The translations under genes were made by a program, and so were the position numbers. DNA of 64,000 bases from Patescibacteria group bacterium. GTDB taxonomy: Bacteria; Patescibacteriota; Gracilibacteria; UBA1369. The number at the start of each line of letters is the position of its first letter. Position 1 is the stretch's first letter. The DNA is taken from positions 62,001 to 126,000 of the forward strand of contig CAUJCM010000001.1 of assembly GCA_963169655.1 (NCBI GenBank), given 5' to 3'. This document shows, one piece after another, positions 54,208-59,862 of this stretch. The notes under the pieces are model-generated. The model was not told where the DNA came from. It worked only from the letters and a program-made list of their open reading frames with translations, and ran no database searches.

Positions 54208-55656
54208 ATGATTAAGACTATCAATAAAGTTTTTTTAATAAATACATTAACACTTTCTTTTTTATTGGGGGTAAGTGTGATGTCTTTTTTTATTTCTTTT
54301 AATTTATTTGTTGTAATTATTCCCTTAGCTTTTGTATTTTGGATTTTTAAATATTTTTCTTTATTTAACAAAAATTTGATTTTGTTAATTTTATTATTTT
54401 TTGTATTTGGTGTGTTCCGTTTATATTTGGATTTTGAAAAATGGGGGACAAATCTAAAGACTTTTAAAAATAGAGAAAATATTATGGCACATTTAGTATC
54501 CTTTCCGGATATTAATTTAGATAAACAAAAGATTTTAATTGAAAGTGATTTTGGTTTTTTAGAACTTAAAAGATCTTCATTAGAAAAATATTTGCCTGGA
54601 GATACAATCTTTTTTACTGCTGATATTCTAAATTTAAATCAAATTGAAATTGAAGAAAGTTTTATTGGTAGATTTTTTTTATTAAAAATCAATTATTTGG
54701 CTCAAAATATAGGTGAGATTAAAGTTGTTAATCAGGGGAAAAAATATTTTTGGTTAGTATTTCTAAGAGGAATTTACCAATTAAGGTTGTATTTTTTAGA
54801 TATTTTGAATCAGAAATTAGGTGAGCCAGCAGCTTCTTTTGTTGCAGGGATATTAATTGGTGAGAGAGGAAGTTTATCGACTGAAATAAATGAAAATTTT
54901 CGTATTACTGGACTTACTCATATTTTGGCGGTTTCTGGATTTAATATTACTATTATTATTAATTTAATTTTATTTATTTTTTTAAGGGCTAGTAAAACTT
55001 GGCGATTTTGGTGGAGTTTTATTTGTATTTTCTTTTTTGTAGTAATTACTGGTGCTAGTGCTAGTGTTTTAAGGGCAGGCGTAATGGGGGTGTTAGCATT
55101 ATTTGTTAAAACGATTGGAAGAAAAATTAAGCCTCTTCAATTAATTTTATTAAGTGTTTTTTTGATTGTAGTTGTTAGTCCAGCTATTTTAAATTTTGAT
55201 ATTTCATTTCAATTATCTGTGGTAGCTACTTTGAGTTTGATTATCTATGGAAATACATTAAATGAGATGCAATTTTTAGGATGGAAACAGTTTATTTGGG
55301 AAAGTGTGAGTGTTACATTGGCTGCTCAAATTTTAACTTTACCTTTAATCTTTTTTTATTTTGGAAGTATTTCTTTGATTTCACCTGTGGCAAATTTGGT
55401 AGTTGGGCCTTTGATTCCATTTTTGATGTTACTAGGTTCAATAATTATCGTACTGTATTTTATATTTCCATTTTTAATTCCGTTATTAGCAGGCATTATT
55501 CAACTTGTTGTTTTAATTTTATTTAAGATAATTGATATATTAGCTCATTTACCTTTTGCCCAAATTGATATAGGGAAAAGTAATATTATTTTAGTAGTTT
55601 TCTATTATTTATTGTTATTTAAATTTTTTGATAAACGAAAACTGGAGCAAAATTAG
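54208..55656 (+). CDS. comEC: ComEC/Rec2 family competence protein
   Basis: AASFVAGILIGERGSLSTEINENFRITGLTHILAVSGFNITIIINLI...LRAGVMGVLAL; multi-TM. Confidence 0.9.
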   Translation: MIKTINKVFLINTLTLSFLLGVSVMSFFISFNLFVVIIPLAFVFWIFKYFSLFNKNLILLILLFFVFGVFRLYLDFEKWGTNLKTFKNRENIMAHLVSFPDINLDKQKILIESDFGFLELKRSSLEKYLPGDTIFFTADILNLNQIEIEESFIGRFFLLKINYLAQNIGEIKVVNQGKKYFWLVFLRGIYQLRLYFLDILNQKLGEPAASFVAGILIGERGSLSTEINENFRITGLTHILAVSGFNITIIINLILFIFLRASKTWRFWWSFICIFFFVVITGASASVLRAGVMGVLALFVKTIGRKIKPLQLILLSVFLIVVVSPAILNFDISFQLSVVATLSLIIYGNTLNEMQFLGWKQFIWESVSVTLAAQILTLPLIFFYFGSISLISPVANLVVGPLIPFLMLLGSIIIVLYFIFPFLIPLLAGIIQLVVLILFKIIDILAHLPFAQIDIGKSNIILVVFYYLLLFKFFDKRKLEQN

Positions 55657-56212
55657 ATTCTTTGTCTCGGTCTTCTGTATGGATTAGTTTCCAGTTGGGA
55701 ATTTGAAAAGCATAAGAATAAATTATTGTACCTTTTTTAATTTTTTTATCGATCATAGGTTGTAATTTTTTTAAGGTATCTGGAAGTAAATAACAAAAAA
55801 TAATATCTGCATTTTTGAGATTATATAAAGCAAAATCCCCATATTTTATATGGGCTTTTGATCTCCAAAATAATTTTCTAATTAAAGCTAGAAGGTAGAC
55901 TAATGGGGATAATTCAATCCCAATTGCTTTTGCTCCATACTTATTTGCTGCAATATAGACAAATCGGCCATCTCCACATCCAATATCATATACAACTTGT
56001 CCTTTTTTGATTTTGGCCATTTTCACTATTTTTTCAGCTCTTTTCATTGGAGTGGGTACAAAAGGTGCTCCTTTCAACATGGCGTAAATTGTGGGGATAG
56101 TGATAGCAATTAATAAAAGAATTGCAAAAATATTATTTAGATTAAGTGCGGAAAAATAAACTAGAGGTAATGCTAATAGGATAGTTACAAGTGATAAAAT
56201 GAGATCTGCCAT
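55619..56212 (-). CDS. Membrane-anchored class I SAM-dependent methyltransferase
   Basis: Two N-terminal TM segments; VVYDIGCGDGRFVYIAANKYGAKAIGIELSP; LKNADIIFCYLLPDTL. Confidence 0.85.
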   Translation of the reverse strand: MADLILSLVTILLALPLVYFSALNLNNIFAILLLIAITIPTIYAMLKGAPFVPTPMKRAEKIVKMAKIKKGQVVYDIGCGDGRFVYIAANKYGAKAIGIELSPLVYLLALIRKLFWRSKAHIKYGDFALYNLKNADIIFCYLLPDTLKKLQPMIDKKIKKGTIIYSYAFQIPNWKLIHTEDRDKESNFAPVFVYQKI

Positions 56213-56742
56213 TAAATTTTATATAAATATATTTTATTTTTTGGGGATTCTGTGGGGATTACTTTGAAAGGTTTTATATCTTTTAATTTGAAAGTATTAG
56301 AAATAAAAATAGTCCCTTTTTTAGATTCTTTTGAAGTTTTTTCCCAAGCAGATTGTAATAATTCTGGTAATAGATAGCAATAAATATAATCTGCATTTTT
56401 TAAATTTGCTTGAAGAAAATTTTGATATTTAATTTGTATTTTTGAATGATGAAAAAATTTTAAAATTAAATAAAATAAATAGGGTAAAATAGTAATTTCG
56501 TATCCTTGTGCGATTAAACCATTTTTTTCGGCTTCAAATAATACTTTTCCGTCGCCGGCACCAAGATCAATAAAATTTTTATTTGGAGTAAATTGATAAT
56601 TTTGGAATAAATTTTTAATTATTTTTTTTGAAGATGGAACATATGGAACTTTTGTTCTTATAAAACTGTAAAAAGAAGTTAGGAGTAAAATATTTACTAT
56701 GACAATAAATATTAAAACTAAAATTTGTAGAAAATTAATCAT
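56212..56742 (-). CDS. Membrane-anchored class I SAM-dependent methyltransferase, paralogue of neighbour
   Basis: N-terminal TM; FIDLGAGDGKVLFEAEKNGLIAQGYEI; LKNADYIYCYLLPELL. Confidence 0.85.
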   Translation of the reverse strand: MINFLQILVLIFIVIVNILLLTSFYSFIRTKVPYVPSSKKIIKNLFQNYQFTPNKNFIDLGAGDGKVLFEAEKNGLIAQGYEITILPYLFYLILKFFHHSKIQIKYQNFLQANLKNADYIYCYLLPELLQSAWEKTSKESKKGTIFISNTFKLKDIKPFKVIPTESPKNKIYLYKI

Positions 56743-58618
56743 GAGAGATTGGTGGTATAATCACTTCTTCAGTTTTTTTAATTTGAAAAAGTGGAGGTTG
56801 TATTTCTTTGTGTTTTCTTTTGTGTTTTTTATTTAATTTGTGAAGAAAATTAGTTTCAGTGAGATTATTTGGTGTATTTTCAGTATTATTTTGAATATTA
56901 AATTGACAAAAAGTAAGACTTCTAATGTCTTGAGTCACAGCATTTAAAATAATATTTTTGATGTTTTCTATGTCTAAATTATTACTGAAATATATCTTTT
57001 TATGAGTATTGGTATTAGTAAATTTTTCTAAAATTTTTTGTATTTCGAGATGAAATTCTGGAGAAATTTCTGACGAAACTTTAAATAAATTTTTAATTTT
57101 AGAGTCGATATTATGAATATTTGCTAATGAATTATTTTCAAAGATTTGTTTAATTAACTCATTAGATATATTTGGGAGCTTTGTTTTTAATGATTCAATT
57201 AATTGATAATTTTCTAGCCCATTGATGGATATTTTATTAAATGCAAGATTTTCAAAAGGTTCAAAAGCTTTAGTTTCATTAAAAATACTTAAAAGTGGTG
57301 AACTTAAATCTATGCTTAGTTTTATACTTGGAGATAAATGATTTTTTATTTGAGTAAAAATTTGATTTATTAATTCAAGATTTTGAAGGCTTTCATAACT
57401 AATTTCTTTTTGGATAATAAAATCTTGCCAGCCAGTGAACTGTATAATGAATTGTTTTTGAAAATTAGGGTAAATTTGAGAATTTTGTTGTGATTTAACC
57501 AAATAATTTTCAATAATTGGTAAGTCTTGTAATAAATTATCAATATTTGTATATGAACTAAAATTTACAATTACTGAAATATCAATTTTATTGTTTTTTT
57601 CTTCTTGTTCCTCCTCATTGTTATTTATAGTTAATCCAAGAGCGGTATTTTCAATAAAAGTTGAAATAATTAAGTCAAAAGTGTTTTTGGCACTTAGTAA
57701 ATTAACTACTTGTTGGTCATAAGGACTGATTAATTCATAGTCTTCTTCTTTAGTTAATGCATCTATAAAATTAGGAGTTAATTCAATATTAAATTGTATA
57801 AATTTATTAAGTGTATTTTTTTGAAAATTTTTAATAAAAATTAAATATTCTAAAATATCTGGATGGTGAATATTGAGTGTGAATGTCTGTAAAGGAGTAA
57901 AAGTGTCACTAATTTGTTGTCTTAAAACTTCAAGTGTTGAGGTGTAAATTTTAATGAATGAAACTGGCCCAGATGAATAACCTTGAGTGGATTTGATTAA
58001 AGACATTTTTGGTCTTAATAATGAGAAATCAACAGTTGTATTAATTAAGTTTTGGAAATTAATGGCAATTTGTTTGAGATGATCAAAAATGTTTGATAAG
58101 TCGTCTTCGAGATAAATATGCATTCCACTGAAGGAATTTTGTTTTTTAAGAATATTTTGATGGGGTAGGAAATTCCCTTGCTCAAGAAGTTGTTGGATAT
58201 TTTTATCATCTTGAGCAAGCTTAGAAAATAGATCAAATTTAGAATTTTGATTATTTGCCAGTGAATAAAATTTAATTAATTTTGTAATTTGAGCTGAATT
58301 AAAAAAGTTAGTATTTTCTAAATTTTTATTGAAAATATTGTCTTTATGATCGCTTAGATAATTAGAAATTTTGATATAATTTTCTTCCTGACAAATATTG
58401 ATTAGTAAATTAATAAATTGATTGATGGTAAAATTTTGTTGGTCATCATTAAGGTTAATTTGGAAAATGTTTAGGTAGGTTTGAGCTTTATTTAAGATTT
58501 TTCGCACATCAAAATTAGATTCATTGCTAATGGATGCAATTTGTTCGAGAGTTTCTTGTAAATCTTCACTTGTGAGTATTATTTTTTGCTGATTTTTATC
58601 AAAAACAGTTATTTCCAT
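56735..58618 (-). CDS. Ribonucleotide reductase-like protein (ATP-cone-like N-terminus plus class II-like RNR fold), catalytic cysteines absent
   Basis: RPKMSLIKSTQGYSSGPVSFIKIYTSTLEVLRQ, HHPDILEYLIFIK, YELISPYDQQVVNLLSAKNTFDLIISTFIENTALGL, ISPEFHLEIQKILEKFTNTNTHKKIYFSNNLDIENIKNIILNAVTQDIRSLTF. ORF track start 58639; MEITVF start at 58618 is more likely. Confidence 0.75.
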   Translation of the reverse strand: MEITVFDKNQQKIILTSEDLQETLEQIASISNESNFDVRKILNKAQTYLNIFQINLNDDQQNFTINQFINLLINICQEENYIKISNYLSDHKDNIFNKNLENTNFFNSAQITKLIKFYSLANNQNSKFDLFSKLAQDDKNIQQLLEQGNFLPHQNILKKQNSFSGMHIYLEDDLSNIFDHLKQIAINFQNLINTTVDFSLLRPKMSLIKSTQGYSSGPVSFIKIYTSTLEVLRQQISDTFTPLQTFTLNIHHPDILEYLIFIKNFQKNTLNKFIQFNIELTPNFIDALTKEEDYELISPYDQQVVNLLSAKNTFDLIISTFIENTALGLTINNNEEEQEEKNNKIDISVIVNFSSYTNIDNLLQDLPIIENYLVKSQQNSQIYPNFQKQFIIQFTGWQDFIIQKEISYESLQNLELINQIFTQIKNHLSPSIKLSIDLSSPLLSIFNETKAFEPFENLAFNKISINGLENYQLIESLKTKLPNISNELIKQIFENNSLANIHNIDSKIKNLFKVSSEISPEFHLEIQKILEKFTNTNTHKKIYFSNNLDIENIKNIILNAVTQDIRSLTFCQFNIQNNTENTPNNLTETNFLHKLNKKHKRKHKEIQPPLFQIKKTEEVIIPPISHD

Positions 58619-58620
58619 AC

Positions 58621-59595
58621 TTAATTTTTTATATTCCAAATATATTTTTTTTCAATTTTACCTTCAAAACCAAATCCAGATGCTTTTCTGTGACCACCTC
58701 CGCCCATAGTTCCCGCTAAATCACTTAAATTATATCCATCTTTTCTTGTTCTGAGTGAGCCTTTGATATGGTTTTCAGAGTCTTGATTAATTAAAACTGC
58801 ATAATTACTATTATCTACCATACTGATATAATCAATAATTCCGCTAATATCTTCTTGATTGGCATTAAATTTTTTAAAATCTTCTTGCCCAACAAAAGCA
58901 ATTGAAGTTTGATCTTTATTAACTGAAATATTTTCAAGAGTTTGTCCCCATAAATGAAATTTTGTGAGATTGAAATTACAGTACATATTTTGATGAACTT
59001 CTTGTATTGAGGCACCTTGTTCTAGAAGGAAACTGGCGATGTTTAAAACTTGAGCATTGATATTAGAGTGCATAAAACTACCTGTATCATAATAAAGTCC
59101 AAATAATAAATTAGTAGCAATGTCTTTAGTTATGTTGAAACCCCAATAGGTGAGTAGCAAAAATAATATTTCTGCTGTAGAAGATAAATAACTATTTACT
59201 AAATTTATAGTACCAAAGTTGTTGTTTGACGCATGGTGATCAATATTAATATATTCACCCTGATAATCTGTGATATTAGTAAAGGCAACTTGACTTAGGC
59301 TTCCACAATCAACACTAATAATTAAATCATATTTATTAATATCTAACTCATTAATATATTGATCTGCTCCTATTAAGCTTTGACAAGTTTTTGGAGGTTG
59401 ATGAACACATATAGAATCTACTTCTTGTCCAAATTGCTTTAGGGCGGATTTAAGTGCTAGATTTGCTCCAATTGTATCTGGATCTGGGTGTCGATGAGAA
59501 ATAATTCCAATTAAATTTGATTTTTTGATAGTAATTAAAGCTTTATCGGCTTCTTTTTTATCAAAATCGAAATTTAATGTATTTAAATCCATCAA
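58621..59595 (-). CDS. DHH family phosphoesterase (NrnA-like nanoRNase/pAp phosphatase)
   Basis: SHRHPDPDTIGANLAL, SVDCGS, NIDHHASN, GTMGGGGHRKASGFGFEG. Confidence 0.93.
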   Translation of the reverse strand: MMDLNTLNFDFDKKEADKALITIKKSNLIGIISHRHPDPDTIGANLALKSALKQFGQEVDSICVHQPPKTCQSLIGADQYINELDINKYDLIISVDCGSLSQVAFTNITDYQGEYINIDHHASNNNFGTINLVNSYLSSTAEILFLLLTYWGFNITKDIATNLLFGLYYDTGSFMHSNINAQVLNIASFLLEQGASIQEVHQNMYCNFNLTKFHLWGQTLENISVNKDQTSIAFVGQEDFKKFNANQEDISGIIDYISMVDNSNYAVLINQDSENHIKGSLRTRKDGYNLSDLAGTMGGGGHRKASGFGFEGKIEKKYIWNIKN

Positions 59596-59598
59596 TTT

Positions 59599-59862
59599 TT
59601 AATCAGGCAAATTATGTATTTTTTCTTCTTGATAATCTTTAGCTAATTCATCAATCGGTGGGAAAAATTGGACTTTTTCATCTGTATAGAGAAAGATTGC
59701 TCTTGTTGGACAAGCTTCAGCAGCTAAAGTTGTATTTGTGTTATCAATACTTGGCCCAACTAAAATTGCAATTCCTTCTTCATCCAATTGAAATACTTCA
59801 CCAGCAACAGCTACACATGCAGCAGCTCCAATACATAAATCTCTGGAAATATTAACTAACAT
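59599..59862 (-). CDS. Ferredoxin (single cluster, three-Cys type)
   Basis: DLCIGAAACVAVAGEVFQLDEEGIAIL...AAEACPTRAIFLY. Confidence 0.88.
   Translation of the reverse strand: MLVNISRDLCIGAAACVAVAGEVFQLDEEGIAILVGPSIDNTNTTLAAEACPTRAIFLYTDEKVQFFPPIDELAKDYQEEKIHNLPD

Follow-up and report, generated by a model that had tools for sequence, protein, structure and literature searches.

A putative class II ribonucleotide reductase pseudoenzyme with a conserved core and C-terminal tail in one family of Peregrinibacteria

The analyzed stretch of DNA (64,000 nucleotides, in the following referred to as the window) is part of a 1.0-Mb genome (G000) and harbors a gene for a homolog of ribonucleotide reductases (RNR), which is designated pseudo-RNR here. 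The ORF begins with an ATG at position 58618 of the minus strand and comprises 627 codons and a stop codon ending at 56735; as had been stated in the original prediction, the frame is free of internal stops. An in-frame TTG at 58639 represents an alternative start, which would run into the neighboring DHH gene. The features of the locus are compiled in Table 1.

Table 1. Genes and sequence features at the pseudo-RNR locus (window coordinates).
Feature	Position	Strand	Basis
Pseudo-RNR CDS, 627 aa	56735..58618	(-)	ORF list; Pfam, NCBIfam, PDB and Foldseek matches
Degenerate ATP-cone-like N-terminus, residues 1-100	58319..58618	(-)	Cone-like secondary structure in model
Conserved core, residues 170-330 (helix A, loop 1, FSxLRP, helix B, HPDILEYL)	57629..58111	(-)	Alignment identity
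Former NPCGE site, now INNNEEEQEEKNNK, residues 331-344	57587..57628	(-)	Alignment
Predicted disordered C-terminal tail, residues 573-627	56738..56902	(-)	pLDDT below 50
QPPLF, sliding-clamp-binding-like motif	56786..56800	(-)	QxxL(P)F pattern
EEVIIPPI, tail motif EE[IV]xxPP[IV]	56747..56770	(-)	Family comparison
DHH/DHHA1 phosphoesterase (NrnA-like), directly upstream of pseudo-RNR	58621..59595	(-)	Pfam
First downstream methyltransferase-like gene, overlaps pseudo-RNR stop	56212..56742	(-)	Weak Pfam matches
Second downstream methyltransferase-like gene	55619..56212	(-)	Pfam CMAS/Methyltransf_31

For comparison, 13 genomes of one Peregrinibacteria family (G000-G012) were examined. The search for orthologs, which the original prediction had suggested, revealed the gene in 12 of them; the remaining genome, G012, is 53% complete. 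According to ORF maps the DHH/DHHA1 phosphoesterase is encoded directly upstream in all 11 assessable genomes, and the downstream pair of methyltransferase-like genes occurs in the same order in most of the family. These shared neighbors indicate one locus, which is most simply explained by vertical inheritance within the family. A small ferredoxin-like protein (59599-59862 in the window) adjoins the DHH gene and is also present in G005 and G007.

Ten of the 12 gene-bearing genomes carry a catalytically dead version. It is full-length in G000, G001 (cut by a contig edge), G003, G005 and G007 and occurs as a mini-form of 183-336 aa in G004, G006, G008, G010 and G011. The motifs ACF and NPCGE are kept by the NrdJ proteins of G002 and G009 (L038:6891-9065 and L039:6652-8826), which are devoid of the C-terminal zinc-ribbon/Cys-pair domain carried by NrdJs elsewhere in the order and, judged by these motifs, look like an intermediate stage. 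A protein of 760-780 aa with only weak TPR-like matches follows the gene in the clade of mini-forms and intact genes (L042:3491-5833, L043:9044-11380, L038:9079-11361, L044:5458-7800); it is possibly cut to 354 aa in G003 and missing from G000, G005 and G007.

The homology to class II RNRs proposed in the original prediction was confirmed by profile and structure comparisons. The window protein matches PF02867 with 86.7 bits (E 1.8e-24, curated Pfam cut-off 23.9) and NCBIfam PRK08665 with an E-value of 4e-41, whereas it misses the equivalog cut-offs of active RNRs by far (PRK08665, 141 bits vs. 961; TIGR02504, 122 vs. 400). The nearest solved relative by sequence is the NrdJ of T. maritima (phmmer search of the PDB, E 5e-20), and the same enzyme was the top Foldseek match (1xje, E 8.6e-25, TM 0.60 over 593 columns) of the AlphaFold model (pTM 0.71). 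Since active homologs had entered the AlphaFold alignment for this model, it supports the RNR fold and is no independent discovery of it. The window protein is thus a class II RNR (NrdJ) homolog by profile and predicted fold. The proposed ATP-cone-like N-terminus was recovered in part: the model displays a cone-like fold, but the Pfam ATP-cone profile did not match the window protein and the KRDG signature is gone. Identity in this region amounts to about 20-27% among the pseudo-forms, and an ATP-cone is still scored in the orthologs of G003 and G008.

The catalytic positions were found to be replaced as originally described. Gly165 within SGMHI is located where NrdJ has the active-site redox Cys (the ‘CF’ position of ACF), and INNNEEEQEE is aligned with NPCGE, so that the thiyl-radical Cys motif is missing. 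The protein contains two cysteines in all, Cys76 and Cys571, neither of them at a catalytic position, and no C-terminal redox Cys pair. The GGG of loop 1 and the loop 2 relay are absent from all pseudo-forms. In RNRs, the loop 1 glycines and loop 2 pass the identity of the effector to the active site, and their loss is expected in proteins with no active site left to signal to. Without the active-site motifs of class II RNRs, the window protein is, by its sequence, a pseudoenzyme.

Conservation of the dead forms is restricted to defined segments. Pairwise identity of the full-length forms is 49-55% at residues 170-330 and 66% at residues 601-627, as against 20-34% elsewhere, while active NrdJs share 55-85% across the whole barrel. 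We take residues 170-330 to be the dimer-interface and specificity-site half of the RNR barrel. This segment is the only part of the barrel kept by the five mini-forms, which consist of the core and tail segments only, except for that of G008 with an intact ATP-cone in addition. The cut sites of the mini-forms match the conserved parts of the full-length forms, which is the strongest clue to function. The AlphaFold model of a mini-form is weak (pLDDT 49.5, pTM 0.43); its Foldseek matches are RNRs. The effector contacts Asp226 and Arg256 of the human and yeast R1 presumably correspond to D172 and R202 of the window protein, and Lys243 presumably to Q189. Equivalents of D172 and R202 are invariant in the family wherever the position is present, and position 189 is always occupied by Q, R or K. 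The window protein combines helix A, FSxLR and helix B with the presumed effector-contact Asp and Arg of a specificity-site module. In dimeric RNRs the specificity site is located in the dimer interface (PMC3267527).

All mini-forms end just short of the NPCGE strand, as would be expected if they were halves of a split active enzyme complemented in trans by a C-terminal half encoded elsewhere. The full-length forms, however, retain the fold of the C-terminal half without its catalytic residues, and no separate C-terminal half was found in the family genomes, where all other PF02867 matches are complete RNRs save for a split at a contig edge in G010. This explanation was rejected for lack of such a half and is given a next to negligible probability.

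The test for purifying selection recommended in the original prediction was feasible for one close pair of mini-forms only, as the full-length forms differ by dN values of 0.49-0.77 with dS mostly saturated. The 212-aa mini-forms of G006 and G011, which belong to the same genus, differ by three nonsynonymous and 33 synonymous changes (omega 0.021; neutrality test, p = 7e-19), and omega of the neighboring genes is 0.015-0.082. The mini-form is therefore shown to be under purifying selection. Complete open frames of 587-627 codons exist in four diverged full-length genomes, with an open frame of 475 codons at a contig edge in the fifth, although about eight stops would be expected to arise in such an A+T-rich gene if 10% of its sites were replaced at random. 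A decaying pseudogene whose frame is not yet broken might account for the loss of all catalytic residues, the stepwise shortening and the identities of merely 26-47% between full-length forms. It is opposed by the omega value of the mini-form pair, by the conserved open frames and by a PP motif of the tail that is invariant in 12 of 12 members. On the first two grounds decay was rejected, and we regard it as highly improbable. An RNR fold was thus found together with orthologs and, in the mini-forms, with constrained rather than relaxed evolution.

In a tree of RpoB and RpoC built with outgroups, the full-length dead forms constitute one clade with 100% support, and a second clade (91%) holds the NPCGE-bearing G002 and G009 among the mini-forms. 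Because genes with NPCGE lie inside the mini-form clade and a regain of catalytic residues is unlikely, there were at least two independent losses of catalysis. The position of G008 allows for two or three, probably three if this genome branches off first within its clade (84%). A single loss was considered, as a tree of the RNR module groups the dead forms, but it was rejected because this tree disagrees with that of RpoB/RpoC and long-branch attraction is suspected; in our judgement the grouping is due to long branches.

A further complete RNR is encoded in all 12 gene-bearing family genomes. The separate intact RNR to be looked for according to the original prediction was found in the window genome: an RTPR-like class II enzyme of 777 aa, in which NPCGE and a Cys pair at the C-terminus are present. 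It is apparently the active RNR of this organism (L045:6012-8342, minus strand; G000:C4, about 156.0-158.3 kb), contains an additional ATP-cone at its N-terminus and a portion of the insertion domain of the monomeric enzymes, and scores just below the TIGR02505 cut-off (311 vs. 340 bits). G001, G005 and G007 possess class Ia NrdAB and class III NrdD, and the other family genomes, including G002 and G009, a class II RNR of about 1210-1246 aa, which in G010 is divided over two contigs. The turnover of long class II, class Ia plus class III and RTPR-like RNRs within one family is quick. The presence of a second RNR in every gene-bearing genome, together with the retention of just the RNR dimer interface as a surface, would fit a protein that directly regulates the active RNR of the same cell or forms heterodimers with it. 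We consider this improbable, since the resident RNR varies and one interface would have to serve distant partners.

Nearly all of 38 genomes from other families of the order contain one RNR gene, and no dead or short form was detected among them. In a search of 90 genomes of the order, short forms were confined to this family; the only exceptions, a few frames of 525-700 aa in other families, are taken to be truncated by contig ends. A viral origin was considered as well and rejected: scans of viral contigs yielded many RNRs, among which a crude motif screen revealed no dead form. Most candidates without an NPCGE match still had CF and the Gly-rich loop. Descent from a viral class I R1 lineage of the betaherpesvirus type does not agree with the best matches, which are class II NrdJs, nor with the conserved chromosomal synteny.

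The second conserved part of the pseudo-forms is the C-terminal tail. Residues 601-627 are their most conserved segment, with 66% identity compared to 38% in active enzymes. A QxxL(P)F motif occurs in the tail of 11 of the 12 family members, with a frequency of 1-7% each in shuffled sequences, the members being related and the trials hence not independent; in G004 no clear QxxLF was found. In the window protein QPPLF lies in the predicted disordered segment, which is the setting looked for in a QxxLF-type clamp-binding peptide. The DnaE proteins of six family species have QSGLF, QTGLF, QTNIF, QVSLF, QSSLF or QESLF, in that part of the protein which in bacterial DnaE harbors the clamp-binding peptide. 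The PP of the second tail motif, EE[IV]xxPP[IV], is invariant in all 12 members. That this motif is common to other proteins of the window genome was ruled out, as its DNA pattern occurs there only once. Several active NrdJs of the order also possess EExxxPP[IV], where it precedes the zinc ribbon, and the tail motif is thus older than the catalytic loss; to our knowledge it has no counterpart.

The strong conservation of the tail in pseudo-forms relative to active enzymes and the loss of the loop 1 glycines and loop 2 in all pseudo-forms would also suit a pure scaffold, in which the module merely dimerizes without nucleotide and function resides wholly in the paired tail motifs. A mere dimerizer, however, has no obvious need for the invariant equivalents of the effector Asp and Arg and for the polar Q/K/R position, and we consider such a scaffold possible but rather unlikely.

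The combination of a dimer/specificity module with a conserved disordered tail favors a putative adaptor or sensor over residual catalysis. Our proposal, to which we attach about even confidence, is a repurposed, non-catalytic dimer and nucleotide-site adaptor that may dock on the sliding clamp. In genomes provided with a second RNR, the NrdJ gene lost catalysis and was nevertheless kept, for what would be a non-catalytic task. The module of helix A, loop 1 and helix B would dimerize, and a nucleotide would probably still influence it, because it has retained Asp172 and Arg202, the presumed effector-contact residues. The tail would dock the adaptor on a partner, for which the QxxLF motif suggests the DNA sliding clamp as a candidate, and this may place the adaptor at the replisome. 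From these features we infer dimerization, the binding of nucleotides, docking on the clamp and whatever effect there may be on replication or on the supply of dNTPs. Against the adaptor it has to be mentioned that triphosphate binding may have vanished with the GGG of loop 1 and loop 2 and that the clamp motif is short. As a tentative extension, which we consider unlikely in its full scope, the pseudo-forms might be replisome-tethered, non-catalytic (d)NTP sensors derived from the specificity-site dimer module, a role which might have pre-existed in the active enzyme by means of its tail and have become the sole function in parallel once a second RNR took over catalysis. The original prediction of a repurposed RNR fold is borne out with respect to fold, pseudoenzyme status, orthologs, selection (in the mini-forms) and the second RNR, whereas for the role as nucleotide sensor, regulator or scaffold we continue to infer. 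The parallel losses, the mini-forms, the second RNR in each gene-bearing genome and the tail go beyond this prediction and are the more striking features.

RNR is an essential and much-studied enzyme, and the repeated loss of its catalysis together with a selected module and tail implies that RNR is able to serve a second, non-enzymatic function. The mini-forms of 183-212 aa represent small natural constructs for direct tests of dNTP binding, dimerization and clamp docking, which bear on the long-standing question of a link between RNR and the replisome. No bacterial counterpart of a dead RNR was described in the limited open-access literature consulted.

Among known systems, NrdJ of the T. 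maritima type (PF02867, TIGR02504) is homologous to the pseudo-RNR along the barrel, as judged from profile and fold, and the pseudo-RNR belongs to the gene lineage of the NPCGE-bearing NrdJs of G002 and G009. It differs from NrdJ in the absence of the thiyl-radical Cys, NPCGE, the redox Cys pair and loops 1 and 2 and in its degenerate ATP-cone; the mini-forms in addition are missing most of the barrel. The NCBIfam entry NF005401 ‘ribonucleotide reductase-like protein’ (PRK06948), a named RNR-like subfamily, also scores on family members, but the mini-form remains far under its cut-off (41 bits vs. 906). Bacterial clamp-binding proteins such as DnaE and Hda use peptides of the types QL[SD]LF and QLxLP[LF], and the tail motifs QPPLF, QLSLF and QxxLPF are similar to the DnaE motif found in the respective genomes. 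The nearest precedent are the inactive R1 proteins of betaherpesviruses (HCMV UL45, MCMV M45), which have lost most catalytic residues, gained roles in protein interaction and likewise represent an RNR turned non-enzymatic (PMC5469499). These are viral class I proteins acting in host signaling, whereas the pseudo-RNR is of class II, chromosomally encoded and reduced in parallel to what is presumably the specificity-site module.
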